A stretch of DNA of 33,178 nt from Prolixibacteraceae bacterium. GTDB taxonomy: Bacteria > Bacteroidota > Bacteroidia > Bacteroidales > Prolixibacteraceae. Position 1 is the first letter of the stretch, and each line of letters opens with the position of its first letter. The notes under the pieces were generated by a model, which did no database searches, was not told where the DNA came from, and was given only the letters and a program-made list of their open reading frames with translations. The stretch lies in assembly GCA_016931385.1 (NCBI GenBank), contig JAFGEV010000199.1, positions 1 to 33,178 of the forward strand, given 5' to 3'. The translations under genes and the position numbers were made by a program. Shown here piece after piece: positions 210 through 30,824 of the stretch.

Positions 210-1019
210 ATGAAAAAAATTGCTTCTTTTCTTCTGATCATGTTTTTTGCCGTAGGTTTTGCGTTTTCACAAAACTCATCGGGTGGATCAAATTATTACA
301 GTTCGCTGTTTGGCGACGAAATTGCCCCACTTTCAGCCAGTGGCGGCTCTGCTTTGGTTTGGGTTGATATGGCTTTCGAGGCTGATGGTGTTGTATCAGG
401 GTTAACAAACCTTGGTTATGTTGTTACTGTAGCAACAGGTGCTGGTGATTTTAATACGAAGATACAGTCAGGCCTGTATAATATGGTGGTTCTTTTTTCT
501 CAAGACTGGTCTAGTTCTGGTCAAGGGATAAGCCTGTCAGCAGTTTCAAATTATATTTCTGGCGGTGGTGCCATGATTTATGCAACCTGGACTACAAGTG
601 ATCAATCGTTCGCAAATTTATTTGAAGCAAATATTACTGTAAATACCAACATGACAACAGTAACAATTTCCGATCCTGGTTTGGCAAGCGGTATTTCAAA
701 TCCCTTTACGGTTTCAAATGCTGGAACGTGGGGAATTTTCTCTGTTGGTTTATCTGCAATAGGCAGCGGTGAAGTACTGGCTACTTTCGAAAACAGCGAT
801 GCAGCTATTATCCGTGGAAATGGCGGGCAAACAATCATGCTTGGGTATTTGTCCGATGCACCACCATCGGCACAGCGCCAAGCAATTTTCGAAAATGTTG
901 TGAATGCGACTACACCTAATGTTGTACCTATTCCTTATTACTGGATTATTATCCTGTTTGTAATGATTGCAGCAACGATTCTTTTTACTCAAAGGAAAAG
1001 AATTTTTCATCACGCATAA
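210..1019 (+). CDS. Secreted protein with exosortase-type C-terminal sorting tail (candidate substrate)
   Basis: 269 residues. A clear Sec signal peptide (MKKIASFLLIMFFAVGFAFS, cut before QNSSGG) leads into a globular region of about 215 residues. Its alternating hydrophobic strands (ALVWVDMA, MVVLFSQDW, MIYATW) suggest a flavodoxin/class I amidotransferase-like alpha/beta fold; I do not recognise the family. The end is the notable part: Pro-rich VVPIPYYW at about 238-245, a hydrophobic helix (IIILFVMIAATILF) and then a basic cluster QRKRIFHH. That three-part tail is the architecture of PEP-CTERM-like exosortase signals, and the Pro plus Trp recalls the IPTL-CTERM kind. An exosortase gene lies 3.2 kb away on the other strand. 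A perfect terminator follows the stop. The alternative is a simple C-terminally anchored periplasmic protein. Confidence 0.8.
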   Translation: MKKIASFLLIMFFAVGFAFSQNSSGGSNYYSSLFGDEIAPLSASGGSALVWVDMAFEADGVVSGLTNLGYVVTVATGAGDFNTKIQSGLYNMVVLFSQDWSSSGQGISLSAVSNYISGGGAMIYATWTTSDQSFANLFEANITVNTNMTTVTISDPGLASGISNPFTVSNAGTWGIFSVGLSAIGSGEVLATFENSDAAIIRGNGGQTIMLGYLSDAPPSAQRQAIFENVVNATTPNVVPIPYYWIIILFVMIAATILFTQRKRIFHHA

Positions 1020-3131: not shown

Positions 3132-3671
3132 TTATTTTAAAAGTTGTTCCAAAACCTGCTCGAGTAAAGGCCCGCTAAGGTTTTTTGCAATGATTATCCC
3201 ATTGCCATCGATAAGAAAGTTTGAAGGAATACTGTTTACACGGTACACCATGGCATATTTGGAACTCCAAAAATTCAGGTCACTCACGTGATATGGCCAT
3301 TCAAGTTTATCATATTCGATACCTGCAATCCAGTTTTCTTTGTTCTTGTCAAGTGACACACTGAATACGGTAAATCCCTTGCCGTTTTTAAATTCTTTAT
3401 TTTTAAATTTTTGATAGGCTGCAACAATTGTTGGATTTTCCCTGCGGCATGGCCCGCACCACGATGCCCAAAAATCGATCAATACCAGCTTGCCCGTAAG
3501 TTGTGAAAGGTCGATTGTTGTACCATCAACCCCTTGTTCAATAATATTTGGCGCTTTATTGCCAACATTTAAACCAATTTCTGATTGACTTTCAAGGCCT
3601 TTGGCTGTTAGTGTATAAGGAATAGCCAATATGCCTGTAATAATCAACAACAAAAAAATATTTTTCATCAT
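3132..3671 (-). CDS. TlpA-like thioredoxin-fold thiol-disulfide oxidoreductase
   Basis: 179 residues from the ATG at 3671 (MMKN); the frame extends to 3698, but only the inner start gives a good signal peptide (KNIFLLLIITGILAIPYTLTA). The AhpC/TSA-TlpA core follows: GNKAPNI, LVLIDFWASWCGPCRREN with the redox pair Cys72-Cys75, and the cis-Pro loop (NSIPSNFLID). The insert between strand and helix (FSVSLDKNKENWIAGI) is typical of Bacteroidota TlpA/ResA proteins. It should act in the periplasm, anchored or soluble, as a thiol reductant or disulfide exchanger. It is third in a run of three minus-strand genes behind the exosortase and its membrane partner (36 nt gap). The position suggests, but does not prove, that it services the exosortase Cys or its substrates. 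Confidence 0.88.
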   Translation of the reverse strand: MMKNIFLLLIITGILAIPYTLTAKGLESQSEIGLNVGNKAPNIIEQGVDGTTIDLSQLTGKLVLIDFWASWCGPCRRENPTIVAAYQKFKNKEFKNGKGFTVFSVSLDKNKENWIAGIEYDKLEWPYHVSDLNFWSSKYAMVYRVNSIPSNFLIDGNGIIIAKNLSGPLLEQVLEQLLK

Positions 3672-3707
3672 AATCCGAATTTTAAAAATAATAAACAATT
3701 ACTGGCC

Positions 3708-4223
3708 TTATTTGGTTTCAGAATATTTGTATTTTATGATCAAAGAATCTTTTATGATCAGGAAAAACACGATAAAGCCGAAAACCTGCAAACCGATGAA
3801 GAGCCCCATCGATTTGGCTTTCGACTGGCTGATATTGAACATGAGAAGGGGAAAGATGATTTGCAGAAAGTATACGATTCCCCAGTTTATTCCCAGGAAA
3901 CGTAAGGCAATTTTCCAGTTTAACCTTTTATCAAAAAAAAGGGACAACTGCCATGCCAGAAGCAGTACAACCGGTAGGCAGTATTCAATGGTAATTTTTG
4001 TGCGGCGGTCGGGATAATAGCAATACATCATTGTTTTTTCTTCTTTCTCGAAATGTTCAATTTCTGTTGTTTCGATAGATGAAAACCTTGAGGTAATTTT
4101 TTCGACACCACCGGCTACAAATTTTCCATATACGGTTTCACCGCCATTTGCCCATACAAAATAAAACAGAATGCTGGCCACGATGAAAATGATATTCCTT
4201 ACGATCCTGTTCATTTTATTCAT
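3708..4223 (-). CDS. Four-helix inner-membrane protein, putative exosortase partner
   Basis: 171 residues with no family I recognise. Predicted membrane segments are about 8-25, 78-97, 106-128 and 139-162, with a charged loop of about 50 residues (26-77) after the first helix; by the positive-inside rule the loop probably faces the periplasm. The ATG overlaps the exosortase stop by 8 nt (ATGAATAA), a signature of translational coupling. XrtF systems of flavobacteria also carry a small membrane protein directly after the sortase, so an accessory role is a fair inference. The loop contains YCYYPDRR and the second helix a further Cys (IEYCLP), which the neighbouring thioredoxin could act on. Function unproven. 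Confidence 0.8.
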   Translation of the reverse strand: MNKMNRIVRNIIFIVASILFYFVWANGGETVYGKFVAGGVEKITSRFSSIETTEIEHFEKEEKTMMYCYYPDRRTKITIEYCLPVVLLLAWQLSLFFDKRLNWKIALRFLGINWGIVYFLQIIFPLLMFNISQSKAKSMGLFIGLQVFGFIVFFLIIKDSLIIKYKYSETK

Positions 4224-4839
4224 TTTTTGGTGTTTCTTCGGTTTTTACAAGTTTCTTCCGCATCATGAACCTGTTTGCAAGTTCCCATAATCCCCAAATT
4301 ATTATTACCAGGAGAATGTTCCAGATATAATCGTGCATGATGTTGAAAACCTCAGGGTATTTTCGCCCAATTACACCCAACATGACTATGCGCAGTGAAT
4401 TGATAATGGCAAGTGTAACAAATAAGGTTCCACCAATAGCCAGTTTTTGTTTAACGGACCATTTTGAGAAAATTACAAGGGCGATCATTGCAAGGTATGC
4501 ATGGTAGGCCGAACATTCAATCTCGATGATCATCGGGTAATTGCTGATGGTAATCGATTTGTAGTTAACGACCAATGTTGTAACCACGCCAGTGCCATCC
4601 CCGATAATTTTTGCAGGTATGAACATTACCTTCGCAAGGGCATACGAAAGATAGGTGGTAAGATCGACAAACAGCATCGAAAACCATTGACGATTTGTAT
4701 AATCCCAGGCTACAATAATTACCAATATCACCCATAAACCAAAAGCTTTGATCAGGGGCAATAGCTCTTTAAAAAGTTCTTTACGCTTTTGTGCTTTTAT
4801 CTCTTTTTCCGAAGGTTTCTTTTTGCGGCTTTTGTTCAT
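4216..4839 (-). CDS. Exosortase/archaeosortase family transpeptidase
   Basis: 207 residues, the size of the short single-domain exosortases. A very basic N-terminus (KSRKKKPSEKEIKAQKRK) precedes about five to six membrane segments. The family triad is in order: Cys109 in IEIECSAYHAYLAM, Arg150 in NSLRIVMLGVIG, His169 in NIMHDYIWN. Exosortases cleave a C-terminal sorting tail at the outer face of the inner membrane and are thought to pass the protein to a surface glycan or lipid. No EpsI domain is fused. It heads a three-gene run with an overlapping partner and a TlpA-like protein; 152 nt separate it from murA upstream. Subfamily (XrtF-like, XrtN-like or new) cannot be settled by eye. No exopolysaccharide genes are nearby. 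Confidence 0.9.
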   Translation of the reverse strand: MNKSRKKKPSEKEIKAQKRKELFKELLPLIKAFGLWVILVIIVAWDYTNRQWFSMLFVDLTTYLSYALAKVMFIPAKIIGDGTGVVTTLVVNYKSITISNYPMIIEIECSAYHAYLAMIALVIFSKWSVKQKLAIGGTLFVTLAIINSLRIVMLGVIGRKYPEVFNIMHDYIWNILLVIIIWGLWELANRFMMRKKLVKTEETPKNE

Positions 4840-16994: not shown

Positions 16995-17969
16995 TTAAAA
17001 AGCCGGGAACGGGAAGGTTTGATTTTCTTTAACCTTGAAATCGTAACGCAGCAGTATCTCAAACGTACCTCCCTGGAATTCCCTGAGGCGGGTGTGGGAA
17101 TAATCGTAACTGAAACCAATCTTCATGTTTTTATACTGAAACTGTGCATAAGCGCCCAAAGCATCGCTGATACGGTACATCAATCCAAACCAAACTTTTT
17201 CATAGAACAGGAACGAGAAATCGAAATCGGCTGTAATTGGCGCACCAGGTGTCATTATGGTGGTTAACCCCGGTTTAAATGCTATGTTCTCAGATAGTGG
17301 CAATATATATGCGCCATGCAAAAAGTAGTGCTGTTTTTCGCTGCTGAGTGCTTCAACAGTTTCTCCATTTAAAGTGTATGTTGAATCAACTTTGTTGATG
17401 TACCTGTTTTCGAGCAACCGTGGAACGGAGAATCCCAGGTAGAAATTGTCGGAGTACCAGAATACCCCTACGCCGGCATTGAAAAATACCTTGTTATCCT
17501 CACCGTAACGTATGATGTATTCATCATCGTAATGATAGCGGTACAGATCGGTAAGGTTCCACTGGAAATAATTGATGCCCGCTTTAAGCCCGAAACTGAT
17601 CTGCGTCTTTTCGCTTGCCCTTATCCGGTAGGAATAGTTTGCAAAGAACCCTGTTGTTGAAAACGGGGTGGTGTAATCGTACATAAAATCGAAGCCCAGG
17701 CCCATGTGCAAACTGTCGATGGGCATGCTCATGGTCAGCGATGATGTGGATGGCGCCCCTTTCAGATTCACCCACTGGTTGCGAAATACCCCGGTTACGT
17801 TACCCACGCCCCTTAGCCCGGTGTAGGCCGGGTTAACCGACATCAGGTTGTTCATGTATTGCGAATATACGGGATCCTGCTGCGCCATTGCCGGGCAGCT
17901 GAACAAAAGCGCCAATCCTACTGCAAGCAGGCCGGCTCCTTTCATCAATATGTTTCTGATCCCTTTCAT
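16995..17969 (-). CDS. PorP/SprF family type IX secretion membrane protein
   Basis: 324 residues. Signal peptide ends ...CPAMAQ, followed by the family hallmark QDPVYSQYMNNLMSVNPAYTG and VFRNQW. The remainder is an outer-membrane beta-barrel pattern ending with FEILLRYDF. SprF-like proteins are needed for export or surface attachment of their partner giant type B cargo (SprB in Flavobacterium johnsoniae). It starts 9 nt after the stop of the 4281-residue protein, so it is surely co-transcribed and most likely dedicated to it. Everything expected of the family is present. Confidence 0.95.
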   Translation of the reverse strand: MKGIRNILMKGAGLLAVGLALLFSCPAMAQQDPVYSQYMNNLMSVNPAYTGLRGVGNVTGVFRNQWVNLKGAPSTSSLTMSMPIDSLHMGLGFDFMYDYTTPFSTTGFFANYSYRIRASEKTQISFGLKAGINYFQWNLTDLYRYHYDDEYIIRYGEDNKVFFNAGVGVFWYSDNFYLGFSVPRLLENRYINKVDSTYTLNGETVEALSSEKQHYFLHGAYILPLSENIAFKPGLTTIMTPGAPITADFDFSFLFYEKVWFGLMYRISDALGAYAQFQYKNMKIGFSYDYSHTRLREFQGGTFEILLRYDFKVKENQTFPFPAF

Positions 17970-17978
17970 TCGTTCATC

Positions 17979-20900
17979 TTACCAGAACAGGTATATAAAG
18001 CCTGCCTGGCGGTTCTTTCCTTCGTTATAAATTAATGTATAGTAATATGTTCCGGCCGGCAGCGGTTTATTGCCGAACAAACTTCCCCGGTTCGAATAGC
18101 CACCCCAGTCGTTTTTGTAATCCCGTTGTTCATAAACCACGTGCCCGTACCTGTTAAAAATCTGGAGCATGTTTCCCGGGAAGTAATGAATGCCGTCGAT
18201 GATAAGCACATCGTTTTTCCCGTCGCCGTTGGGCGAGATAATCTCGGGTACCTTCAACTCTTCAATAAGGAATATGATGTAGGCATTTCCGGTATTTCCG
18301 CAGGGGGAAACAAGTGTATAAATCATGCTGTCGCGTCCCATGAAATCGGTGTTTGGGTAATAGGTTACCATGGTGTTGTCTTCAAAAAATGAAACATAAC
18401 CGTTCCCGGGATTGGTGTGATCGGCGATGTAAGGCATGAAATACCCCGAGTCGTTTGCAAGGGGATAGAATTCGACCGGAATGCCCGGGTAGGTTCGCAC
18501 GGTATCGGCAACAGCGTACAGGGCTGCTTCATCTGGCAGGTCGATTCTGACAGTGGCAGTGGCCGAATCTCCTTCATTGTCGAAAATGGTGTATTGGAAC
18601 TCATCATCGGAACAGGTTTCAAAATAGTGGTGGTAGATGAATTCGCCTGTTTCAGGATTGAATTCAACTGTACCGTATTCTGGCCCTGAACCGGGTACCA
18701 GGTGAGTCCGGGCTATATCAATGTATGCGTTCGGATCGTCAATGGTATCGGGGTCGTAGTCATTATCGAGTACCGGCAGGGCAAGTATGCCGCCAAATTC
18801 AACCAGAAGGGTATCGTCGTCGTTAGCCACGGGCGGCATGTTGCGCTGAATTACATCGATGTATGCCCAGGCATTGGCAGTTTGTCCCCAGATGTCGATG
18901 ATTTCATATTCCAGTGAATCGGGCCCGTAGTAATGCGGATAGGGCACATAGTTTATGTAATTGTCAGATGTTCCTGCAGCTTCACCATGTTCCGGCGGAG
19001 TGACCACAACAATCGAATCAATCGTACAACGCTGGTTGTCTTTAAACAGGTCGTTGGCCAGAACATCCAGCAGGTTCTGCTTCGAGTTTTCATCAAGCGA
19101 AACGGTATCGTCCAGGGCTTCAATGCCGTTAAGTACGGGCATAATATATACGCGTCCCGTGTCGGATAGCCCGTCCGGGTCTTTTATTTCGTACCTGAAA
19201 TAATTGTCGCACCACAGGATGGTGTCGGCAGAAACAATGATCAGGCTGTCGATTCCATTGAAACTTATACTGAGTGATTGCCCCTGTTCTACAGAATTGG
19301 TTGTAAGCAGTATTGGGTCATTGTCGACATCGTAATCATTTTGCAGAATATCGGAGAAATTTATTTGGAGTGGATTTGCTTCATCAACCCATGTTATGGT
19401 ATCGTTCACGGCAACCGGGCCATCGTTCACCGGGATAATGGTAACGGCTACATTCAGCGAAGCACACTGCCAGGCATCAGAGCACAGGTTGAGGCTGTAA
19501 CGGTCGTGCCCGTTTATATCCTGATCGGGTGTGAATACCAGCAGGGTGTTGTTTTCAATGAACTCATAGCTGCCAAGCACAGGTGCAAGTTCTTCGGCAA
19601 AGGTTTCAACGTCGAAGAAGAAGTTGTAACGGGCCAGGGCGGCCACAATGTCAAGGGTGTCGGGGGTATCCTCATACATGGTTTGCTGCACGTAAATGGC
19701 CGTATCGAGTTCAACCGTAATGTTTACAGTGGCCGTAGCGCATGCCCCTTCAATATCACAAATCGTGTAGTTGAAACTTTCTTCACCTTCGTTCACCCAG
19801 GGTTTATAGCGTAAAGTACCGGTGTTCCGGTCAATTTCAACATCTCCAATCTGAGCACCTTCGCCTGAAATATCAAGTGTTTGCCAGTCGAGTTCGCTAT
19901 CCACATCAAAATCGTTTTTCAAAACGTACAGCCTACTGAAGGTATTTTCAGTAACAAGGTAGCTGTCGTCAGCGGCTACGGGCGGGTCGTTTACCGGCTC
20001 AACCCAGATGTTGATTTCGGCCACATCCCAATTTTCTGCAGTATCGGATATCGTATAACGAACCCAGTCGGGACCGTTATAATTTATTCCAGGGTAATAT
20101 TTCACGTCTAACTTGTAATCAATCCTGGTTGTTCCATACCTGGTATCTTCCAATACCTCAAATGTGGTTATGTCGGTTTCAATATCAGGATCAGAATTAT
20201 GATCATTGTTTGTTGGGTGGGGGTTCAGGACAAAGGCCGAATCTTCCTTCGTTTCATAATAATCGTTCATTGCCACAAACTCGCTGCCCAGGGGTTTTAC
20301 CACTACGGTTACTGTTGCTTCATCGCAACTTTGCTCAACTGCATCAAGGTTGCAAACCTGGTAACGGAATTCATATGTGTCTGTAAAGCCGTTTTCAGGT
20401 GTGTATTTAATCTTCCCGTTTACCGTTACTGCATCTCCATGTTCGGGCTGGCTTGTTACTGTGAGAGTCGCGGGATTAATCCCGTTATCGTTATCGTCAA
20501 CATAGTCGTTTTTCAGAACATCGATGATAACAGGCTGCCCGGAAAAAGTTTTTGCCAGATCATCGAAAACCATAATCTCACCTTTAACAGGAGTTACATT
20601 AATAAATACCCAGGCATAATCCCAGGCGCCAAGCCCCGATGAAACAATGTATTCAAGCGAGTCAGTCCCGTTAAAGCCTTCTGCCGGTTCGTAAATGATG
20701 CTTTGCTTGTAGAAGTCGTAAATGGCCGTGCCGTTTACGGGGTGTACTTTTATTTCAACGGTTCGTGGGTCGGGCGAATCGCCGCCAATGGTGTCGTTCA
20801 GCAAAATATCAATATTGATTTCAGTTTCCTCAGGTGTCGAAACGTTATCGTTCTGAGCACGGAAGGCAGAGAGGGTGTCGCGAACAATGACCGTTACAAC

Positions 20901-23900
20901 AACGTAAGCCGGGTATTCGCCATCGCTTAAGGAATAGGTAAATTCATCGATTCCTGAAAAACCATTTGCCGGTGTATATTCAAGCTCAGTACCCGATTGA
21001 GCTATTGTGCCATTTTCCGATTCAGCCGGATATTCCAGTGTGCCAGAATTAATCGTATTGTCAACATCGCTTACCTGTGGCATGAATTCGAACTGAACCG
21101 GGGTTTCCCATGGGGTTAGCAAAACCAAAGGTGTAGCTACAGGTGGGTCGTTTACCGGGATTACATTTATCAGCATCCATGCGCTGTCCCTGTATACCGG
21201 GCTGCCCATGTCACTTATCCTGTATTTCAGGCTGTCGCTTCCGGTAAAATCTTTTTCGGGATAATAATAAATCACACCGGTAACACTGTTTACAAAAGCT
21301 TTGCCGTGCTTGGGCGCTGTGAGTATGGTAAGCGATGAATAATCAAAATTACCTTCGCCATCGTAATCTGGATCTTCATCGTTTTCAACTACGTTAAAGG
21401 CAATGTACTTATCTTCTTCAACCGTTACTTGGTCATCATTCGCGGTTAGTGCATCGTTCCGGCCCATGATCTCAACAATTAACTGGGCATCGGCAGTCAG
21501 ACCTTCTCCATCGGCCACCGTATAGGTAAAGGCTTCGGTGATATACTGGTCGGGGCCAAGGCGGAAAATTTCAGGCCTGTTTGGTGTATATATAGCCTGG
21601 CCGGTTGTGTCCCAGAAAAGCTCACCGTTGGCTCCCGATACAACGGGATTTGTAATACCCTGCATCCGGATAAGCTTTAGCGTGTCCCTGTCAGGATCGT
21701 GCACACTTTTGGGGATCAGCGATGGCGACAATGCTTTGCTGATCATGTTCTGATCAAGTCTTAAAGTATCATTCCATGCCAGCGGAGCGTTGTTAATCCC
21801 GATGATGTTGATTAAAAACAGCGAAGTATCGCTTGCAAGCCATTCGTCTTCTATGATATAGCTGAACGAATCGATTGCCGTTTCACCCGGGCGCAATGCC
21901 ACGGCCTGTGCCGAGTCGGGTACATAGTTAAACGTACCGTCATCGTTCCAGGTAAGCGTTCCGTATTTACCGACAATTACATTATCAGGCCTGTCGTCCA
22001 CTTTAATCAGCGTCCTTACATCACCGTCAACATCGTAGTCGTTAAAGAGAATATGTTCATCGGCTGCGGTGAGGCTTACCGATTTCATATCTTCAGTATA
22101 ATAAAAGTCTTCAACGGCCACGGGCGGGTCATTCACCCCGATGATCTCAACTACAAGCTCAGCCGTATCGGTCCCGCCAAAAATATCGGAGGCTACGTAG
22201 GGATACACCGCGTAAACGACTTCCCCATAACGCAGTTTATCGGTTTCTTCACGGTTAGTGTTGAAAATATAGGTTCCCAGGGAATCCCAGTCCAGTTCAC
22301 CGTAAATGGTTAAGGTTTCAGCTTCCGATACAAAAAGGGTATCTCCGTCAATATCGGTATCGTTTGAAAGCAGCCCGTTGCCGAATTCCGGCAAACCGGT
22401 TATGCTTTCGGTATCTTCATCAATGCTTACCGAGTCGTTTACGGCAACCGGATTGTCGTTGTTGCCGGTAATAATAATGACAACTTTTGCTGTATCGAAG
22501 CTGTTGAACGAATCCCTGATGATGTAATCGAACTGTTCGCTCACAACTTCACCCGATCGCAGGGTGTCGTTTTCTTCATTCAGGGTATAGGTAAACGAGC
22601 CGTCGCTTCCCCATTCAAGGTTTCCAAATAGAGTTTTAATTTCAGTTGACAAATGGTTGTGGAAAGTGCGTATGATTATGTTATCACCATCTACATCAAC
22701 ATCATTGTCAAGCAATCCGTCAATGCCAGGGGTGAGCGTGATTTGCCGGTAGTCTTCCTCAATTTCTATGGTATCGTTTATGGCAACCGGTTTATCGTTG
22801 GTTCCGGTAATTTTTATCCACAGGGTGTCGGTGCCGGTTGCGCCTACACGGTCTTCAATGGTGTAGGGGAAGAAGTCCCATACGATTTCGCCATTGTACA
22901 GCGAATCGGTGGCTTCGGAAACCAGTTCATAAGTGTATTCACTCAGGTCATTCCAGGTAAGGCTGCCATATCTTCCTGTAGTTTCATAACCGGTTTCCCC
23001 GTTTACTGAAACCATCATGATGGTATCGTTTATATCGATATCCCAGTCATTTTCCAGCAGGTGGTTATTCTGTACCTCAGTTCCAGAAACGTTTTCGTCC
23101 GATTCAGTAAGGCTGTTGTCGTCACGCACAGCCACGGGGGCATCGTTTTCACCTTCAATATAAATGTATAAGTATGCCGAAGCCAGCGAGTCGTGGTCGT
23201 CGATGATGGTGTACAGGATTGAATCGGTAACGGTCAGGCCAAGGGGCAGGGTGTCGAGGCCTGCGTTGCGGTAGTAAGTAAACGCACCGGTGCTGTCCCA
23301 TTTCAGGGCACAGTATTCCGAAAGGGTGCTGTCATTCGGACTCCCTTCAACCTGGTATAAAGTGAATGCATCGCCGTCCCTGTCAGAGTCGTTGAACAGC
23401 AATGATTCCTCCGGATTGTTAAACGCTTTTTTAAGGGTATCTTCCGAAATAAATACAGAGTCGTTCAGGGCTGTTGGTGGGTCGTTTTCACCGAAAATGC
23501 TGATGACAAGCCAGGCAGTATCGGTGGCATCGTGGACATCGCTGATCACGTACCTGAACGAATCAATAACAGCCGCACCGGCAGCCAGGCTGTCGACAAA
23601 GGGGAACAGGGTGTAAACAAAAATCCCGTTAGAACCCCAGTCGAGACGGCCAAACTCGCCGTCAATATGTTTGTTTGCTGTGCCGTTTATTAAATCGATG
23701 CCAATGTTATCCCTGTCAATGTCCCAGTCTTCTGCCAATATTCCCTTTTCAGGGATATCCCTGATCAGTTGCCCCTGGTTTTCATAAATTGTATCGTAGT
23801 GGTTATTGGCAAAGGGGGCGTCGTTTTGGCCGGTAATTCTTACGAAAAGGTAAGCTCCTGTTGTTTCATCTGATTGCCTGTCTGATACCCGGTATTCAAA

Positions 23901-26900
23901 TACATCCGTGTAAATTACTCCTTCAGGGAAAGGATCAACAGCTTCTTCACTGGAAGTGTAGGTAAAAGCTCCCGTTGAGTCCCATGCAAGCTTGCCGAAA
24001 TTCCCCTGAATCGTGTCAATGGTTACCCCGTCAATCTGCACAATAATCAGATTCCGGTCGGGATCACTGTCGTTTGCCAATAATCCATCTTCTTCCGGCA
24101 CAAAAGTTTCACGGGTATCTTCATAAATGCTTAGGGTGTCGTTGTTTGCTATAGGCAGGTCATTTGCGCCAATAATGTAGATAAACAACATGGCGATATC
24201 GGTCAGGGCTTCCTCTGGCCTGTCGTGGATAACATAGGTAAAAGTGTCGATGATTGTTTCCCCGGCAGCCAGATGGTTGATTGAATCAGGGAAAGGATAG
24301 TAAGTGTACGAACCGTCAATGTTCCAATCGAGTATTCCATACTTTCCATCGGCAATTTCAAAACTGCTTCCGTTTATCTCGTTTACCCTTAATTCATCAC
24401 CATCAACATCCGTATCGTTAGAGAGTAAAGCTTCAGGTTCACCAAAATTTATGGTCATAGAAGCGGAATCTTCAGGGTAAATCAGTATGTCGTCGTTAGC
24501 AACAGGCGGGTCGTTTACCGGGTTGATTATGATGGTGACCGTTGCCTCGGAACATGCACTGTCATCGTCACATAAAGTGTATATAAATGAAACTTCACCA
24601 TTGACATCGGGATCAGGCTGATATCTTAGAATACCGTTTGGTGAAAGGGTGATTAATCCGTTTTCATCGGCTGTTCCTTCGTTTCCGGGATCAATCCTGA
24701 CCGCAAGTGTTGCTTCTGTGTCATCAACATCTTCATCGTTATCAATTACGGAAACATTTTGCAGGATGTTATCTTCTTCAATATAGAATGTATCGTTAAC
24801 AGCAACCGGCGGATCATTCACAGGCAAAATCCTGAAGTATACGGTTGAGTCGTTCAATGCCCAATCAGTGCCGTCCGAAGCATTGTAGAGGAAATGATCG
24901 GTACCGTTCCAATCGGTATCGGGTACAAAATTCAATCTGGATATCTGGCTGTAATTTACAATCTGTCCAATAACAACAGGGGCTACATTGTAATTCAAGA
25001 TACCGTGTTCAGGAAGAGATGTAATTTCGATTTGCTGCAGTTCGTCATTCGGGTCAGCATCTTCAAAAGCGTTTCTGAAATTGATTACTGAAGTTGTAAA
25101 GTAAATTGTATTGTCTTCGGTTCCGTCGTTCAGCCATAAATCGTGCGCAACAGGAGGGGTATTGACATAAACGAAACGAATAGTATCGAACGATACATCC
25201 TGCCCGTCAGAGGCTCCCCATTCCACTTCAACGGTTCCGTTGAAACCTGCCGGGGGAGAATATCTAACTTCGTTAAATGAAATAAATGGGATGCTGTATG
25301 AGCCTGTAATAACTGCATTGTTAATGCGGAAAAAACCTGGTGTACCTGGTGGGATATTCAGGTAGAATGTTGTTGCGTTATCGTGGGCATCTGCATCGGA
25401 ATAGTGGCTAAGGATTTCTGTTTTATCAATGGTTTGGATTTCATCTTCGGGCAGGCCTTCCCTTATGATTGCTGTTAAAACAGGCGCTTCGTTTATATAG
25501 TTTACGATTACCTCTGCCGGTGAATCACCCCAGTTGTAACCATCGTAAGCATTCCACCGGAACGTTTCAGTGCCTTCGTGGTAGGTATAGCCGCTGGTAA
25601 ATATGACAGCAAAATTGCCGCTTTGCAACTGACCTCGGGAAAATTTTTGATTCAAAGAAACCGGTATCCCGTTAAATACGAGCCTTACCCCTCCCGAAAG
25701 GATGCTCAGCACCTGGAGGGTGTCAAGGTCGTATTCACCTTCGGGTATGGTTGTATTGGAAAGGTTGTTGCTGAAATCGTCAAAGGTGATGGCAACTTCA
25801 GTCGTTTCGGAAACATCGAAAATAACATCGCTCAGGGTTGGCGGGTCGGGTTCTTCCATTACCTCGATGTTCACGGTGGCCGGAAATGTTGCCCAGCCGG
25901 CTCCGTCATACGCATTCCATTCAAATGAAGTATTGCCGAACCATCCCGGGGTTGGCGTAAACCGTAATGAACCGATCTGTCCTGTTGGAATTTCCATGCC
26001 GGCAGTATTAACAGGATTATCTGCAAAGCTTAACACCCCGTTGGCCGGAAGTGATTCTATCCTGATGGCTTCTATGAATTGCCCCGGATCATTGGGCTCG
26101 TCAAAGTGTGCTTCGAACGAATCGGGCCTAAAGGTATAGGTACTATTTTGCCACATTCGCACCATGAAATCCTCAATAATGGGCGGGTTATTCAGTACAT
26201 CCAGGTAAAAAGTTGAATCATCAGAACAGCCGTTGTCGTTTTCAACCCAAAGGCTTATGACATTATTGGCTGAAATATTTTCATATAAAATGTCATCAGG
26301 ATCGGGTTCATCGGAACTGCCCGGGCTACCTCCGCCAAAGGTCCATTGCCAGTTGTTTATAGCTGTTCCGGGACTGGTAACTGAATTGTTGTCGTTAAAA
26401 TCAACAGGGGCGCCCCGGTATACAGGTTGCGGACTGTAACCGGGGACGGCCTGAAGATTGTCGATTGCTACTGTGCGGGTTGTCGTAGCAGTACAAAGTT
26501 TATCGTCGGTGGCAACAAGCGTAACGTTAAGCGTGTTGCCCTTTTGATTCTCGTTAAATGCATGGGTTGGGTATTGATTATCGGAGCTTTCCCCATCCAT
26601 GAAATCCCAGTCCCATCCATTCACATCTCCGTTATCTGAATAAGAGAGATCTGTGAATTGAACTTCCTGTCCGGCGCAGACAAGTGCATCGTCAACATCA
26701 AAAACCGCATGCATGTTTGCCGGGTTGTAAATCTTTACCTGATGGTCGAAGGTGGCCGTGTCGCTGCAACCAATGCTGTTCGATACGATCATCATCGGCC
26801 TGTATAGGCCGTAAACAGGATAGGCATAGCTTGGATCTCGTACATTGGACGTGTCACTATCGCCACTATCCGGGTCGAAAATCCATTTCCACCGGCTTTT

Positions 26901-29900
26901 GGGGTATAACAGGTCGTTGTTTGTGCTGGTATCGGTAAACTGTATTTCCACGCCCTGGCATATGGAATCGTTGTCGATTTTAAATCCGGCCGATGGAGCC
27001 AGGCTTGAGTAAATTTCTTCATTGTTTCCGTAGGAATAATCACCGCATTCCTGACTTGTGAGCACTACACCCGGCAGGGTTACTCCCTGGTCGTAGTAGG
27101 TGTAGCTTGTTGAATATTCCGGGATGGGCGGTCCCGGTGGAATGGTATCGTTGTGACCGTCACCGTTCCCGAAGTCCCATCGTATATAATCGACCTCCCT
27201 CATATCCGAAACGGTAAATTCCACTTCATTAGGGACGCAGCCAAGTAAATTGTCGAAGGCCAGTACACCATAAGCGCCTTTTACATAAATGTCTTCATCA
27301 AGGGTATAGGAGTCGTCGCATCCCCCCCTGAAAACAACCCTAAGTGAAACGGTGTAGTAACCCGGCATAAAGTAACGGTGACGGGGTGCGCGCTCGGTTG
27401 AGGTACTGCCGTCGCCAAAATCCCATAAATAACTGATCACCTCATTTTCATTGGCAACAGGCTGGAAGAAAGCATTTGCCGGTGCGCAGCCAATGTTTGT
27501 TGAAAGCGCCGAGAACCGGGCAGTGGCATTTACTACATGCAAAGCGGCCGTGTCCTGTTTTGTGCAGCCGTTGGGCGAAACCAGGGTCAGGACGGGATGG
27601 AACATTCCCCCGGTCGGATAATTTCGTGTTACGGGGTCAAGGTTGTATGTAGTCAGGTCGGTGCTGCCATTGCCATCGAAATCCCACTGGAACTGTGTGT
27701 ATTCCCCCTCCGAGACATTGGTAAAGGTAACGGTTGACCCGCTGCAAACCAGGGTGTCCCCAATTTCAAAGGCAGGGGTAAAGGGCAGGATGTTGATGAA
27801 ACTATCTTTCACGAGGGTGGCGCTGCACCCAAACTGGTCGGTTACGGTAAGGCTTACATCAAATATCGTATCACGGGTATAGGTGTGGAATGGGTGTTCA
27901 TCGGTACTTGTTCCGCCGTCGCCAAAATCCCAGGAAAAAACATCAAGTGCCGGATCGGCCGGGTCATCAGGGCCTTTGGTCGATTCATTGGTAAACTGCA
28001 CTTCGCTGTTAATACAAACAATGGCAGGAGTTACCGAAAAGTTTACAATTGGCCCGCTTACCTGTATAAGGCCTGCTTCAGTAAAATTATAATCACAACT
28101 GTTGTCGTTGCTTCGTACATACAGGCTCACCGAGTACGTTCCCGGGGTATCATAGGTATAAGTAGGATTGGCTCCTTTTATAGAGTCAATGGATCCGTCG
28201 CCGTCAAAATCCCAGTCGTACAACGATACCACGTAGTTGTCTGAAAGGTGGTCGGTAAGTGTTTGCGAAAAGTTAACCGTGAGCGGTGCACAGCCTGTAA
28301 CCACATCGGCTTCAATCATGCCTGTTGCCGTTTCGTCAAAGGAGTATATGTTTATGGTATCCCTGTAAGTATGGGAACACCCATTGTTCGGGTTGTCGAC
28401 TGTGAGTGTCACAATGTAATCGCCAGTTCCTCCATAGGTATGGTCAGGTTCAAATTCGTTACTGACCGGAGATCCGTCACCAAAGTTCCATTCAAAAGTT
28501 GTGGCCGAGTCAGTGAACTGTGTATTGTTGTCGAAAGAAACGTCATAGGGCGGATCTTCACAAAAGGTATTCTGCGACGGGGAGAACAATGCCCGGGGTT
28601 CGGTAATTTCAATATCGTTAATCCAGGCAATATCCGAAGCACACCCGTTGTTAATGGCCACCACGCCAATGTCGAAATGGCCGGTATCCCTGAATGTGTA
28701 TTCAAATTCATAGGCCGGACTGCCGGGGCTGTCTTCATAGATCGTTTCATACGGTGTGATAAACCGCAGTGAATCGGTTCCCGGGTAATAATAATCAACA
28801 TCGATAGTAATGCCCGTTGAAAAACAGGTATTGGATTGGTCCAGTACAGGGGTAAGCCAGGGTTGATCGGCCAGGCTTACAACATTTGCACGGGTTCGGG
28901 TATATGTACAACCTTTTGTTGTAACAACGATTAGTTCAACAGAATAATTACCTTCATCGGTATAATTGTGGCTTACAGCTGTCCCTGAGCCGGCAGGTGA
29001 GCCGTCGCCAAAGTCCCAGGTGTACGTTTGGGGCGAATCGTTCGGGAACTCACAATCGGCTGCAAAATTGGTCGGGCCTGCGGGGAGGCAGCCAAGTGTT
29101 GCACCCGAAACTTTAAAATCTATCGAAGGCAGTTCGAGGTTAATGCTTTTTTCAATCATTGCCGTGCAGCCGTCTTCACTTGTCACGGTCAGCCGTATGT
29201 TTTGGTTGCCTTCATCGAGGAAATTTCGGGTAAAAGTTGAGGCTGTTGAAATCTGCACCCAGTTTGCGCCCGACTGTTCCCATTCCCAGAGCCAGGAAAC
29301 AATGGCATTTCCAATGGCCGATTCACTATCATCGGTGAACAAAACATCAAATCCGCCATGGCAGATGGGGGTGATGTTGTATGAAAAATCGGCGTTGATT
29401 TGTTCAACTCCAGTCGTTTGGGTTATTACTTCGGAGCAGCCATCGTTGAATATTGCCCTGAGGGTTATGGTTTTGTTCCCTGCCGTTGCAAATACCCACG
29501 AAGGATTGGCTACGGTGGCATCGGTAATTCCATCGTTATTGAAGTCCCATTCATACCATTCAATTGTGGCAGATACTAATGATGTAAACCGTGTGGTGTC
29601 ACCCAGGCAGGTTGTTTCGGGCGAAATGGTGAAATCGGCCGAGTTGTCGTTATTGAATTTAATGGTATCGCTGAACAGTTCTGAAATGCAGCCCCATTCC
29701 GAGGTATCCCTGAGTGAAACTGCGTAGGAACCGTAACCATCATCAGTGAAATCGTAGCTGAAATCTTCATCTGTTCCCAGTAATTCGCCTTCAACATACC
29801 AGGCATAGCTGGTGATTTCGCTCCCTTCAATTTCGGATGTGTTGATGAAATCAGTTTGCGACGGTGCGCAGTTGTCGTCTTTGAGGTAAGTGAACGATGC

Positions 29901-30824
29901 CTCGGGCCTGTCGTACACTTCAAGCAGGTTGAATTCTGTTTTTGAGGCCGAGCAACCGTTTTCATCGCTTACAACAAGGGTAATATTGTAGTTGCCACCT
30001 TCAATATCCGAAACACTTGTTGGATTAGATGGAGTTATTGCAGCTTCTTTTCCGTTTAGATACCATTCGTAATATTTTTCGCTGCCACCTGAAATGCCGG
30101 CAACGGGGTAATCATTGTTGTAAAGGAATGGCGCCACATTCACCGGCGACCCGGTTGAGGTAAAGGTAAGTTCGTGGGGTTCGCAGCCTGGCAGCAGGTT
30201 TTTATCCATAGCAGGTTGTGGCTTGGGATAAACCGATATGGTTTCAGTAAAAGTGGCTTCACCTCCATTAATTGTAAGCCGAACGCTATATGTGCCGGGC
30301 TGTCCGTAAATGGTATTTACAGGGTTGGCCAGTGAAGAAACGTTGCTGTTCCCCAGGTCCCAGGTATAGGTGGTGGCCCCTTTCGATTTATTTGTGTAGT
30401 CAACTATCAGGGAGTTACAGCCCTGCTGCACGTCCATTGTAAAAGCGGCATAGGTTGCGCCTGAAGGATGGACATATATTTTAAAGGTTCGGGATGTTGA
30501 TAAACTGCCGTCGCTGGCAGTAACGTTTAATGTATATGTATTGGCAGTGGTGGGAGTCCCTGAAATTGTTTCATCGCTGATAGTGAGTCCGGGAATACTT
30601 CCGGTTATGGTAATGGTCAGGTCATCGTAGTCATCGTCCTTAAAAGCATTGGCGGGAATGGTATATGTAAAAACTTCCCCTACTTCGGCATGTTGGTTGG
30701 GTATACCCTTATCCATTACCGGAGGCAGGTTTTGAGAATAGGAAAGATATGGAAAGACAATCAGGTTGAAAAATACAACCAGCCACCCGATCCTACACCA
30801 GTTTAAGCTCCCGCACAGTTTCAT
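17979..30824 (-). CDS. Giant T9SS-secreted adhesin, PKD and cadherin-like repeats, type B tail (SprB-like)
   Basis: 4281 residues in one uninterrupted frame. After a signal peptide (to about 31) comes one dystroglycan-type cadherin domain (about 33-118). About 16 PKD-like domains follow to about 1540 (FSWDFGDGG, YLWDFGDGSTS), most with a conserved Cys before the first strands. About 25 cadherin/VCBS-like repeats of about 105 residues follow to about 4185, opening NDPPVAVND and carrying acidic calcium motifs (NDTDVDGDEL). The last 92 residues are a type B sorting domain: ISPNGDGKNDVL, IFNRYGHVVYE, PAGTYYYTLIY, AGFIYLFW. It should form a long calcium-stiffened surface filament for adhesion or gliding. 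The downstream PorP/SprF gene supports T9SS export. No enzymatic domain seen. Start: ATG at 30824 gives a good signal peptide. Confidence 0.95.
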   Translation of the reverse strand: MKLCGSLNWCRIGWLVVFFNLIVFPYLSYSQNLPPVMDKGIPNQHAEVGEVFTYTIPANAFKDDDYDDLTITITGSIPGLTISDETISGTPTTANTYTLNVTASDGSLSTSRTFKIYVHPSGATYAAFTMDVQQGCNSLIVDYTNKSKGATTYTWDLGNSNVSSLANPVNTIYGQPGTYSVRLTINGGEATFTETISVYPKPQPAMDKNLLPGCEPHELTFTSTGSPVNVAPFLYNNDYPVAGISGGSEKYYEWYLNGKEAAITPSNPTSVSDIEGGNYNITLVVSDENGCSASKTEFNLLEVYDRPEASFTYLKDDNCAPSQTDFINTSEIEGSEITSYAWYVEGELLGTDEDFSYDFTDDGYGSYAVSLRDTSEWGCISELFSDTIKFNNDNSADFTISPETTCLGDTTRFTSLVSATIEWYEWDFNNDGITDATVANPSWVFATAGNKTITLRAIFNDGCSEVITQTTGVEQINADFSYNITPICHGGFDVLFTDDSESAIGNAIVSWLWEWEQSGANWVQISTASTFTRNFLDEGNQNIRLTVTSEDGCTAMIEKSINLELPSIDFKVSGATLGCLPAGPTNFAADCEFPNDSPQTYTWDFGDGSPAGSGTAVSHNYTDEGNYSVELIVVTTKGCTYTRTRANVVSLADQPWLTPVLDQSNTCFSTGITIDVDYYYPGTDSLRFITPYETIYEDSPGSPAYEFEYTFRDTGHFDIGVVAINNGCASDIAWINDIEITEPRALFSPSQNTFCEDPPYDVSFDNNTQFTDSATTFEWNFGDGSPVSNEFEPDHTYGGTGDYIVTLTVDNPNNGCSHTYRDTINIYSFDETATGMIEADVVTGCAPLTVNFSQTLTDHLSDNYVVSLYDWDFDGDGSIDSIKGANPTYTYDTPGTYSVSLYVRSNDNSCDYNFTEAGLIQVSGPIVNFSVTPAIVCINSEVQFTNESTKGPDDPADPALDVFSWDFGDGGTSTDEHPFHTYTRDTIFDVSLTVTDQFGCSATLVKDSFINILPFTPAFEIGDTLVCSGSTVTFTNVSEGEYTQFQWDFDGNGSTDLTTYNLDPVTRNYPTGGMFHPVLTLVSPNGCTKQDTAALHVVNATARFSALSTNIGCAPANAFFQPVANENEVISYLWDFGDGSTSTERAPRHRYFMPGYYTVSLRVVFRGGCDDSYTLDEDIYVKGAYGVLAFDNLLGCVPNEVEFTVSDMREVDYIRWDFGNGDGHNDTIPPGPPIPEYSTSYTYYDQGVTLPGVVLTSQECGDYSYGNNEEIYSSLAPSAGFKIDNDSICQGVEIQFTDTSTNNDLLYPKSRWKWIFDPDSGDSDTSNVRDPSYAYPVYGLYRPMMIVSNSIGCSDTATFDHQVKIYNPANMHAVFDVDDALVCAGQEVQFTDLSYSDNGDVNGWDWDFMDGESSDNQYPTHAFNENQKGNTLNVTLVATDDKLCTATTTRTVAIDNLQAVPGYSPQPVYRGAPVDFNDNNSVTSPGTAINNWQWTFGGGSPGSSDEPDPDDILYENISANNVISLWVENDNGCSDDSTFYLDVLNNPPIIEDFMVRMWQNSTYTFRPDSFEAHFDEPNDPGQFIEAIRIESLPANGVLSFADNPVNTAGMEIPTGQIGSLRFTPTPGWFGNTSFEWNAYDGAGWATFPATVNIEVMEEPDPPTLSDVIFDVSETTEVAITFDDFSNNLSNTTIPEGEYDLDTLQVLSILSGGVRLVFNGIPVSLNQKFSRGQLQSGNFAVIFTSGYTYHEGTETFRWNAYDGYNWGDSPAEVIVNYINEAPVLTAIIREGLPEDEIQTIDKTEILSHYSDADAHDNATTFYLNIPPGTPGFFRINNAVITGSYSIPFISFNEVRYSPPAGFNGTVEVEWGASDGQDVSFDTIRFVYVNTPPVAHDLWLNDGTEDNTIYFTTSVINFRNAFEDADPNDELQQIEITSLPEHGILNYNVAPVVIGQIVNYSQISRLNFVPDTDWNGTDHFLYNASDGTDWALNDSTVYFRILPVNDPPVAVNDTFYIEEDNILQNVSVIDNDEDVDDTEATLAVRIDPGNEGTADENGLITLSPNGILRYQPDPDVNGEVSFIYTLCDDDSACSEATVTIIINPVNDPPVANDDILIYPEDSASMTINFGEPEALLSNDTDVDGDELRVNEINGSSFEIADGKYGILDWNIDGSYTYYPFPDSINHLAAGETIIDTFTYVIHDRPEEALTDIAMLFIYIIGANDLPIANNDTLSIYEDTRETFVPEEDGLLANDSDPDRNLIIVQIDGVTIDTIQGNFGKLAWDSTGAFTYTSSEEAVDPFPEGVIYTDVFEYRVSDRQSDETTGAYLFVRITGQNDAPFANNHYDTIYENQGQLIRDIPEKGILAEDWDIDRDNIGIDLINGTANKHIDGEFGRLDWGSNGIFVYTLFPFVDSLAAGAAVIDSFRYVISDVHDATDTAWLVISIFGENDPPTALNDSVFISEDTLKKAFNNPEESLLFNDSDRDGDAFTLYQVEGSPNDSTLSEYCALKWDSTGAFTYYRNAGLDTLPLGLTVTDSILYTIIDDHDSLASAYLYIYIEGENDAPVAVRDDNSLTESDENVSGTEVQNNHLLENDWDIDINDTIMMVSVNGETGYETTGRYGSLTWNDLSEYTYELVSEATDSLYNGEIVWDFFPYTIEDRVGATGTDTLWIKITGTNDKPVAINDTIEIEEDYRQITLTPGIDGLLDNDVDVDGDNIIIRTFHNHLSTEIKTLFGNLEWGSDGSFTYTLNEENDTLRSGEVVSEQFDYIIRDSFNSFDTAKVVIIITGNNDNPVAVNDSVSIDEDTESITGLPEFGNGLLSNDTDIDGDTLFVSEAETLTIYGELDWDSLGTYIFNTNREETDKLRYGEVVYAVYPYVASDIFGGTDTAELVVEIIGVNDPPVAVEDFYYTEDMKSVSLTAADEHILFNDYDVDGDVRTLIKVDDRPDNVIVGKYGTLTWNDDGTFNYVPDSAQAVALRPGETAIDSFSYIIEDEWLASDTSLFLINIIGINNAPLAWNDTLRLDQNMISKALSPSLIPKSVHDPDRDTLKLIRMQGITNPVVSGANGELFWDTTGQAIYTPNRPEIFRLGPDQYITEAFTYTVADGEGLTADAQLIVEIMGRNDALTANDDQVTVEEDKYIAFNVVENDEDPDYDGEGNFDYSSLTILTAPKHGKAFVNSVTGVIYYYPEKDFTGSDSLKYRISDMGSPVYRDSAWMLINVIPVNDPPVATPLVLLTPWETPVQFEFMPQVSDVDNTINSGTLEYPAESENGTIAQSGTELEYTPANGFSGIDEFTYSLSDGEYPAYVVVTVIVRDTLSAFRAQNDNVSTPEETEINIDILLNDTIGGDSPDPRTVEIKVHPVNGTAIYDFYKQSIIYEPAEGFNGTDSLEYIVSSGLGAWDYAWVFINVTPVKGEIMVFDDLAKTFSGQPVIIDVLKNDYVDDNDNGINPATLTVTSQPEHGDAVTVNGKIKYTPENGFTDTYEFRYQVCNLDAVEQSCDEATVTVVVKPLGSEFVAMNDYYETKEDSAFVLNPHPTNNDHNSDPDIETDITTFEVLEDTRYGTTRIDYKLDVKYYPGINYNGPDWVRYTISDTAENWDVAEINIWVEPVNDPPVAADDSYLVTENTFSRLYVLKNDFDVDSELDWQTLDISGEGAQIGDVEIDRNTGTLRYKPWVNEGEESFNYTICDIEGACATATVNITVELDTAIYVQQTMYEDTPDTLDIVAALARYNFFFDVETFAEELAPVLGSYEFIENNTLLVFTPDQDINGHDRYSLNLCSDAWQCASLNVAVTIIPVNDGPVAVNDTITWVDEANPLQINFSDILQNDYDVDNDPILLTTNSVEQGQSLSISFNGIDSLIIVSADTILWCDNYFRYEIKDPDGLSDTGRVYIMPVLNGIEALDDTVSLDENSKQNLLDVLANDLFKDNQRCTIDSIVVVTPPEHGEAAGTSDNYINYVPYPHYYGPDSLEYEIIDIWGQTANAWAYIDVIQRNMPPVANDDDTLLVEFGGILALPVLDNDYDPDTIDDPNAYIDIARTHLVPGSGPEYGTVEFNPETGEFIYHHYFETCSDDEFQYTIFDNEGDSATATVRIDLPDEAALYAVADTVRTYPGIPVEFYPLANDSGYFMPYIADHTNPGNGYVSFFEDNTMVTYYPNTDFMGRDSMIYTLVSPCGNTGNAYIIFLIEELKVPEIISPNGDGKNDVLIIDGIHYFPGNMLQIFNRYGHVVYEQRDYKNDWGGYSNRGSLFGNKPLPAGTYYYTLIYNEGKNRQAGFIYLFW

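Follow-up and report, generated by a model that had tools for sequence, protein, structure and literature searches.

The window that we analysed, 33,178 nucleotides of contig JAFGEV010000199.1 from a Prolixibacteraceae bacterium (genome in 448 contigs, 86% complete), carries at positions 4839 to 3708 a pair of genes that very probably encodes an exosortase-type sorting machine of two parts, acting on proteins that bear a common C-terminal tail (Table 1). Judging from their sequences, the exosortase and its relatives appear to constitute a new subfamily, distinguished by a sorting signal of its own and by a constant partner, and the enzyme probably trims and anchors surface proteins that carry this short C-terminal tag. 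The subfamily is not named in the literature that we found, as judged by titles and abstract openings in a search that left most subscription journals outside. The exosortase definitions used here reportedly go back to Haft in 2012.

Table 1. Coordinates of the exosortase locus and its candidate substrate in the window, and of AraC-type proteins near related loci of other families.
Feature	Location	Strand	Description
Exosortase	window, 4216..4839	-	207 aa; cysteine transpeptidase-type enzyme; Cys109, Arg150, His169-Asp170; TIGR04178 match
Membrane partner	window, 3708..4223	-	171 aa; four hydrophobic segments, beta-strand loop between the first and the second
TlpA/ResA-like periplasmic thioredoxin	window, 3132..3698	-	Pfam Redoxin/AhpC-TSA
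Candidate substrate	window, 210..1019	+	signal-peptide-like start, Cys-free body, C-terminal VPIPYYW, hydrophobic helix, RKR
AraC-type HTH protein	L238:5836-7062		
AraC-type HTH protein	L240:5304-6515		
AraC-type HTH protein	L244:3496-4698		
AraC-type HTH protein	L246:9210-10412		
AraC-type HTH protein	L247:2965-4194		
AraC-type HTH protein	L248:4459-5718		

The genes for exosortase, partner and thioredoxin (tlpA) lie in tandem on the minus strand as a first-pass annotation of this DNA had placed them, and the overlap that it described between the first two amounts to 8 nt if the first ATG of the partner is taken. The tlpA frame as listed (3698-3132) has a TTG start; one of the ATGs near 3671/3668 is more likely the real one. 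The same annotation had seen no exopolysaccharide genes nearby, and indeed none of the 15 window ORFs that were run against Pfam is an exopolysaccharide-synthesis gene (the remaining ORFs were read in the lists). The candidate substrate was absent from its coordinates.

The window exosortase matches TIGR04178 well above the cut-off of 23 (38.4 bits, E 1.2e-9), and this model matches all 24 aligned members of the subfamily at E<=0.001. The three residues on which the enzyme had been identified, Cys109, Arg150 and His169, are invariant in the 24 proteins (that of the window included), as are Glu108 and Asp170, which flank the first and the last of them, and Cys, Arg and His stand in all 24 in the order expected of the exosortase/archaeosortase superfamily. 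The motif Cys is preceded by Glu (EC) in this subfamily and found as GC, SC or AC in the other exosortases caught by the motif pattern. Six of the 100 genomes searched (60 of them in the family) are carriers, i.e., the genome of the window and five others with orthologues 66-86% identical, among them one of the same genus (G001), and a profile search found the subfamily in 19 of the 393 genomes of the order, own included, from nine families; these genomes share ancestry and are not independent, and such counts overstate their independence. A tree built from 55 exosortases of the order and the class places the 24 members on one side of a 99/99 branch, apart from XrtF and the others, with long branches flagged, including the join of the 24-member group with two far rows. 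The set of 24 loci leaves out L022-L026, which hold other exosortase types.

No named NCBIfam subfamily takes in the window exosortase over its cut-off. Membership was rejected for XrtF (TIGR04128; 19.3 bits versus a cut-off of 90, and a separate clade), XrtX (NF046081; 26.7 bits versus 170) and XrtH (TIGR04177; 29.4 bits versus 86). For XrtN, the window protein has no row at E<=1 in the NCBIfam scan, whose library may lack an XrtN model, and the tree holds no XrtN sequence. The phylogeny against named subfamilies that had been proposed earlier thus leaves the exosortase outside every named subfamily tested, by profile cut-offs as well as by tree. The protein has no Exosortase_EpsH Pfam match either, and PDB sequence searches with the exosortase and partner profiles gave a best E of 0.32.

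That the exosortase has a dedicated membrane partner is strongly supported. The partner gene lies directly downstream of the exosortase gene, on the same strand, in all 24 loci and nine families of the order, which answers in the affirmative the earlier question of whether the 171-residue protein co-occurs with this exosortase clade. A profile built from seven partners finds a match in all 24 loci (E 5.4e-11 or better), 17 of which were not in its training set, and the spacing between the two genes, with first-ATG starts, ranges from an 86-nt overlap to 53 nt. The description of the partner as a four-helix protein agrees with a simple hydropathy scan, which yields four hydrophobic segments, and an AlphaFold (AF2) model (pLDDT 78) shows a long first helix, three strands and three helices. 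The most conserved columns are W24, W91 and F148, followed by G27, P84, L95, Q121, L128, S134 and D159, and no Cys is found among the invariant or nearly invariant ones. For the window partner, Pfam gave nothing at E<=1 and NCBIfam no family above its cut-off; TIGR04127 matches none of the 24 partners at E<=1, and hhalign against the TIGR04127 profile (5 of 9 loci) reached at best P 0.047 over 22 columns, i.e., no similarity. At the level of structure, the best Foldseek match in the PDB has E 0.51, and the best VIA-align match has Z 6.1 (5x5y_F), with LptB2FGC-type rows at 4.3-4.8, a range that the tool calls common. An HgcAB-like match (E 0.0008, 19.1 bits versus a cut-off of 285; five of the 24 members) was set aside as a match of membrane composition.

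The candidate substrates, which have signal-peptide-like starts, share a tail that opens with V-P-x-x-x-W or V-P-[VI]-P-[LF]-I-A-S and continues with a hydrophobic helix and a basic end; in the other families it reads VP[LVI]xNWA, helix, RFRR. The candidate in the window, whose signal-peptide-like start was recognized by eye, has homologues (40-47% identical) directly upstream of the exosortase in two loci from two other families (L249 and L250), and in the carrier G022 a homologue sits at the same place, converging on dnaJ as in the window. A second tail-bearing protein of G022 (L018:17437-18273) lies about 4 kb from this one and seems to be divided over two reading frames. When the 25 tail-bearing proteins of the first collection are compared outside their two ends, they separate into 14 groups, the largest of eight, with no similarity at E<=1e-3, and the tail is therefore a feature shared by otherwise dissimilar proteins.

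Profiles built from tails of our own choice (A1, A4 and A5) all reproduce the co-occurrence of exosortase with motif-helix-basic tails that is typical of the superfamily, with a single miss, G236 (99% complete), where the exosortase pair is present and no A5 tail match was found at E<=0.01. A1, built from three tails, finds matches at E<=0.01 in all six family carriers, of which four had no part in building it, and in none of six non-carriers (best 0.126). A4 was searched in 51 genomes, made up of the six carriers, G091 and 44 non-carriers, and gave, at a level of E<=0.002 that was chosen after the result was known, 38 matches spread over all six family carriers (G000, the genome of the window, 13; G001, 9; G016, 1; G022, 5; G033, 3; G056, 7) and none in the 44 non-carriers (best 0.0041). 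Twenty-two of the 38 were in the training set; the 16 untrained ones, from G000 (7), G001 (4), G056 (4) and G033 (1), all sit at frame ends, although one frame (G056:C380) has only 57 aa. L137 had been excluded from A4 although its tail fits, and was then recovered as an untrained match (E 0.00127). The one match in G091 falls in a 71-aa frame that makes no convincing gene and may be due to chance, and G045 (87% complete), which is of the same genus as three carriers and lacks the exosortase, has no A4 match at E<=0.002. A5, built from tails in seven genomes and searched in 47 at a preset E<=0.01, matches in 17 of the 18 carriers outside the family versus none of 29 non-carriers; among carriers outside its training, 10 of 11 match (Fisher p 1.3e-8). 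Five carriers (G091, G133, G204, G256, G373) have weak best A5 matches only (E 2.5e-6 to 0.006). Another exosortase is present in 15 of the 29 non-carriers (a sixteenth, G083, has a broken frame), and therefore the tail follows this subfamily and not exosortases in general.

As the tail is short, and a hydrophobic helix with a basic end is a generic shape, its bearers could be ordinary C-terminally anchored proteins, the exosortase acting on something else; at E 0.004-0.5, A4 indeed has matches in carriers and numerous non-carriers alike, which its short length would lead one to expect. Yet, such an explanation seems quite improbable given the absence of matches from the 44 (A4) and 29 (A5) non-carriers at the levels used, the invariance or near invariance of V and P, and in A5 also of W, and the presence, in 7 of the 17 other-family loci, of a tail-bearing gene that adjoins the pair or is separated from it by one gene. 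Our preferred reading thus remains that of tails recognized by this exosortase, and both tail types fit it because no other exosortase was found in G022 (99% complete) and G033 (88%). The genome of the window has a second, XrtX-like exosortase (L022:1313-1867, contig G000:C178; 114.6 bits versus a cut-off of 170), and single tails there can therefore not be assigned with certainty. This second exosortase adjoins genes that look ExbD/TonB-like by eye, and has relatives in G001 and G016. We also noticed proteins ending like VPLLPIASAAGLGLVGLMAALKKRKK in the genome of the window (L201:2842-6179, G000:C246), in G001 (L203, G001:C16) and in G022 (L211, L212), which stand in tandem in C246 and C16; those of C246 adjoin a protein with matches to phosphodiesterase, TPR and sulfotransferase families. 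Such ends may represent a third kind of tail within this system.

Enzyme, partner and tails are read directly from the genes, and we infer the chemical steps, for which exosortase/archaeosortase systems offer a template, namely export, retention by the tail, Cys-thioester cleavage near the motif and transfer to an acceptor (PMC3237569, PMC7157517, PMC9263693 and PMC12188702). The substrates would cross out of the cytoplasm by Sec and would be held in the inner membrane by their tail; Cys109 would then attack near the VP motif to form a thioester, and the new C-terminus would be handed to an acceptor, leaving the protein free to reach the cell surface. The partner would most likely bind the substrate or the acceptor, or stabilize the enzyme. 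Some candidates lie beside the enzyme and some carriers have a single exosortase, and therefore cleavage, acceptor and the role of the partner are directly testable.

A more tentative idea, which we regard as possible but less than probable, is that the partner is itself a catalytically dead relative of exosortases, so that the pair would consist of one active exosortase and one pseudo-exosortase, with the dead half gripping either the tail of the substrate or the acceptor. When the partner profile is compared with one of 29 other exosortases, the alignment takes in nearly the whole length of the partner (P 0.00088 over 143 columns; P 0.00031 over 152 when core columns are compared). Of 150 block-shuffled controls, a single one reached such a score, over 58 columns; block shuffles were used because circular permutation keeps the local match and makes a poor null. 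The two models moreover follow the same succession of helix, beta-strands and three helices, except for an extra helix ahead of the strands in the exosortase. In the XrtH locus at L025 (described below), too, the gene next to XrtH encodes a protein with a weak match to the XrtH model. However, the 29-exosortase profile was tried after the comparison with the pair's own exosortase had failed (hhalign P 0.18 over 20 columns; with 24 sequences on each side, P 0.054-0.26 and a local match of 91 columns at P 0.095, not significant), and a scan of the 24 partners found no exosortase family at E<=1, which counts against the idea. As read from the alignments, the partners do not conserve the positions that correspond to the catalytic residues; the window partner has Cys82 at the place of the catalytic Cys, kept in its own family only. 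The partner of XrtF (5 of 9 loci) gave P 0.31 against the same 29 exosortases.

The third gene of the tandem encodes, as had been noted, a TlpA-like thioredoxin with WCGPC (Pfam Redoxin/AhpC-TSA, 59-60 bits), but its proposed role as a dedicated redox partner found no support, and it is probably a general periplasmic redox protein that does not belong to the sorting system. Where the genome lacks this exosortase, murA is nevertheless followed by tlpA in 16 of 19 loci, which were our choice from the search matches and not all of them (in the family, 14 of 15 have tlpA directly after murA and one contig ends just past tlpA; in other families of the order, two of four have murA-tlpA). In these genomes 24-192 nt separate murA from tlpA; in G001, G022 and G056, which have exosortase and partner in this gap, the distance is 1189-1236 nt. 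The simplest reading of this gene order is that the exosortase-partner pair was inserted into an old murA-tlpA-grpE-dnaJ block, and that the thioredoxin would adjoin the pair for this reason. The first-pass annotation had held that tlpA being unlinked in relatives would speak against its proposal. The linkage stands in the three close relatives where it can be followed, two other contigs ending before (that of G016 inside the partner, that of G033 just past it, with tlpA starting another contig), and does not extend to the distant ones, as no tlpA-like sequence was found in any of the 18 exosortase loci outside the family (tblastn E<=1e-5, 7-19 kb each).

A three-gene system, with TlpA as the dedicated reductant of the exosortase Cys, would accommodate the position of tlpA after the partner in the window, G001, G022 and G056, the 4-nt overlap of partner and tlpA in G022, which may reflect co-transcription, and a catalytic Cys that should face the periplasm. 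We nevertheless hold it to be very improbable: besides the gene order without exosortase and the other-family loci without tlpA, the tlpA of G056 (L020:1656-2234) has one internal in-frame stop, possibly an assembly error, while exosortase and partner are open, the partner lacks a conserved Cys, and Cys is absent from 7 of the 25 substrate ORFs collected, partial ones among them. It is somewhat less improbable, though still unlikely, that TlpA was drawn into the operon in this family only and keeps the exosortase Cys reduced among other jobs, other lineages working without a linked tlpA; the close spacing of partner and tlpA in the same four genomes fits this, but is explained by the old gene order alone.

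Among described systems, XrtF and the exosortase F system-associated protein (TIGR04128, TIGR04127; Fjoh_1448-1449) also combine a small Bacteroidota exosortase with an adjoining gene for a small membrane protein, and deleting xrtF or its neighbor in F. johnsoniae leads to the same row of surface phenotypes (PMC10936215). They differ by the low XrtF score, the separate clades and the dissimilar partners reported above. The targets of XrtF are called not yet known in PMC12188702, whereas here enzyme, constant partner and tail-bearing candidate substrates can be named together. The same article mentions a CrtB-associated protein encoded downstream of crtB. As XrtF and CrtB show, a neighboring protein beside the sorting enzyme is a recurring theme.

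XrtH with its IPTL-CTERM proteins (TIGR04177, TIGR04174) likewise has a tail in which P is followed after a few residues by W, and a membrane neighbor; yet, apart from the score of the window exosortase, the tail motif associated with XrtH is IPTLxxWG and that of the window type is VPxxxW. Such an XrtH locus was observed at L025:5425-8547 (G098:C15), with an XrtH of 99.8 bits (cut-off 86), two IPTL-type tail proteins, of which the one scanned scores 18.2 bits with IPTL-CTERM, just below the cut-off of 20.5, and a 250-aa membrane neighbor; the neighbor of the XrtH gene matches the XrtH model weakly (E 0.0003). Exosortase/EpsH with PEP-CTERM shares the tripartite tail (motif, helix, basic end) and the N-terminal signal peptide (PMC3237569), but the window system has no PEP motif, and four hydrophobic segments versus the eight helices described for the former in the same article, besides lacking the Exosortase_EpsH match and an exopolysaccharide gene among the window ORFs searched. 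Archaeosortase A of Haloferax is also a Cys-centred sorting enzyme for a tripartite tail, in which Cys173, Arg214 and Arg253 were shown to be critical (PMC9263693), but it is archaeal, acts on a PGF tail and has Arg where the window subfamily has His. The ArtA model matches 7 of the 24 subfamily members at E<=0.001, and the window protein is not matched at E<=1.

An AraC-type HTH protein of 400-419 aa is found near the exosortase pair in 6 of the 17 other-family loci (Table 1; the other 11 were inspected by eye only), and is a possible regulator. Further along the window, a 4281-aa repeat protein (17979-30824) with, by eye, a gliding/T9SS-like C-terminal end adjoins a PorP/SprF protein (16995-17969), a separate surface-export theme. 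In a genome whose window has type IX secretion genes, the exosortase pair would provide a second way of sorting proteins to the surface.
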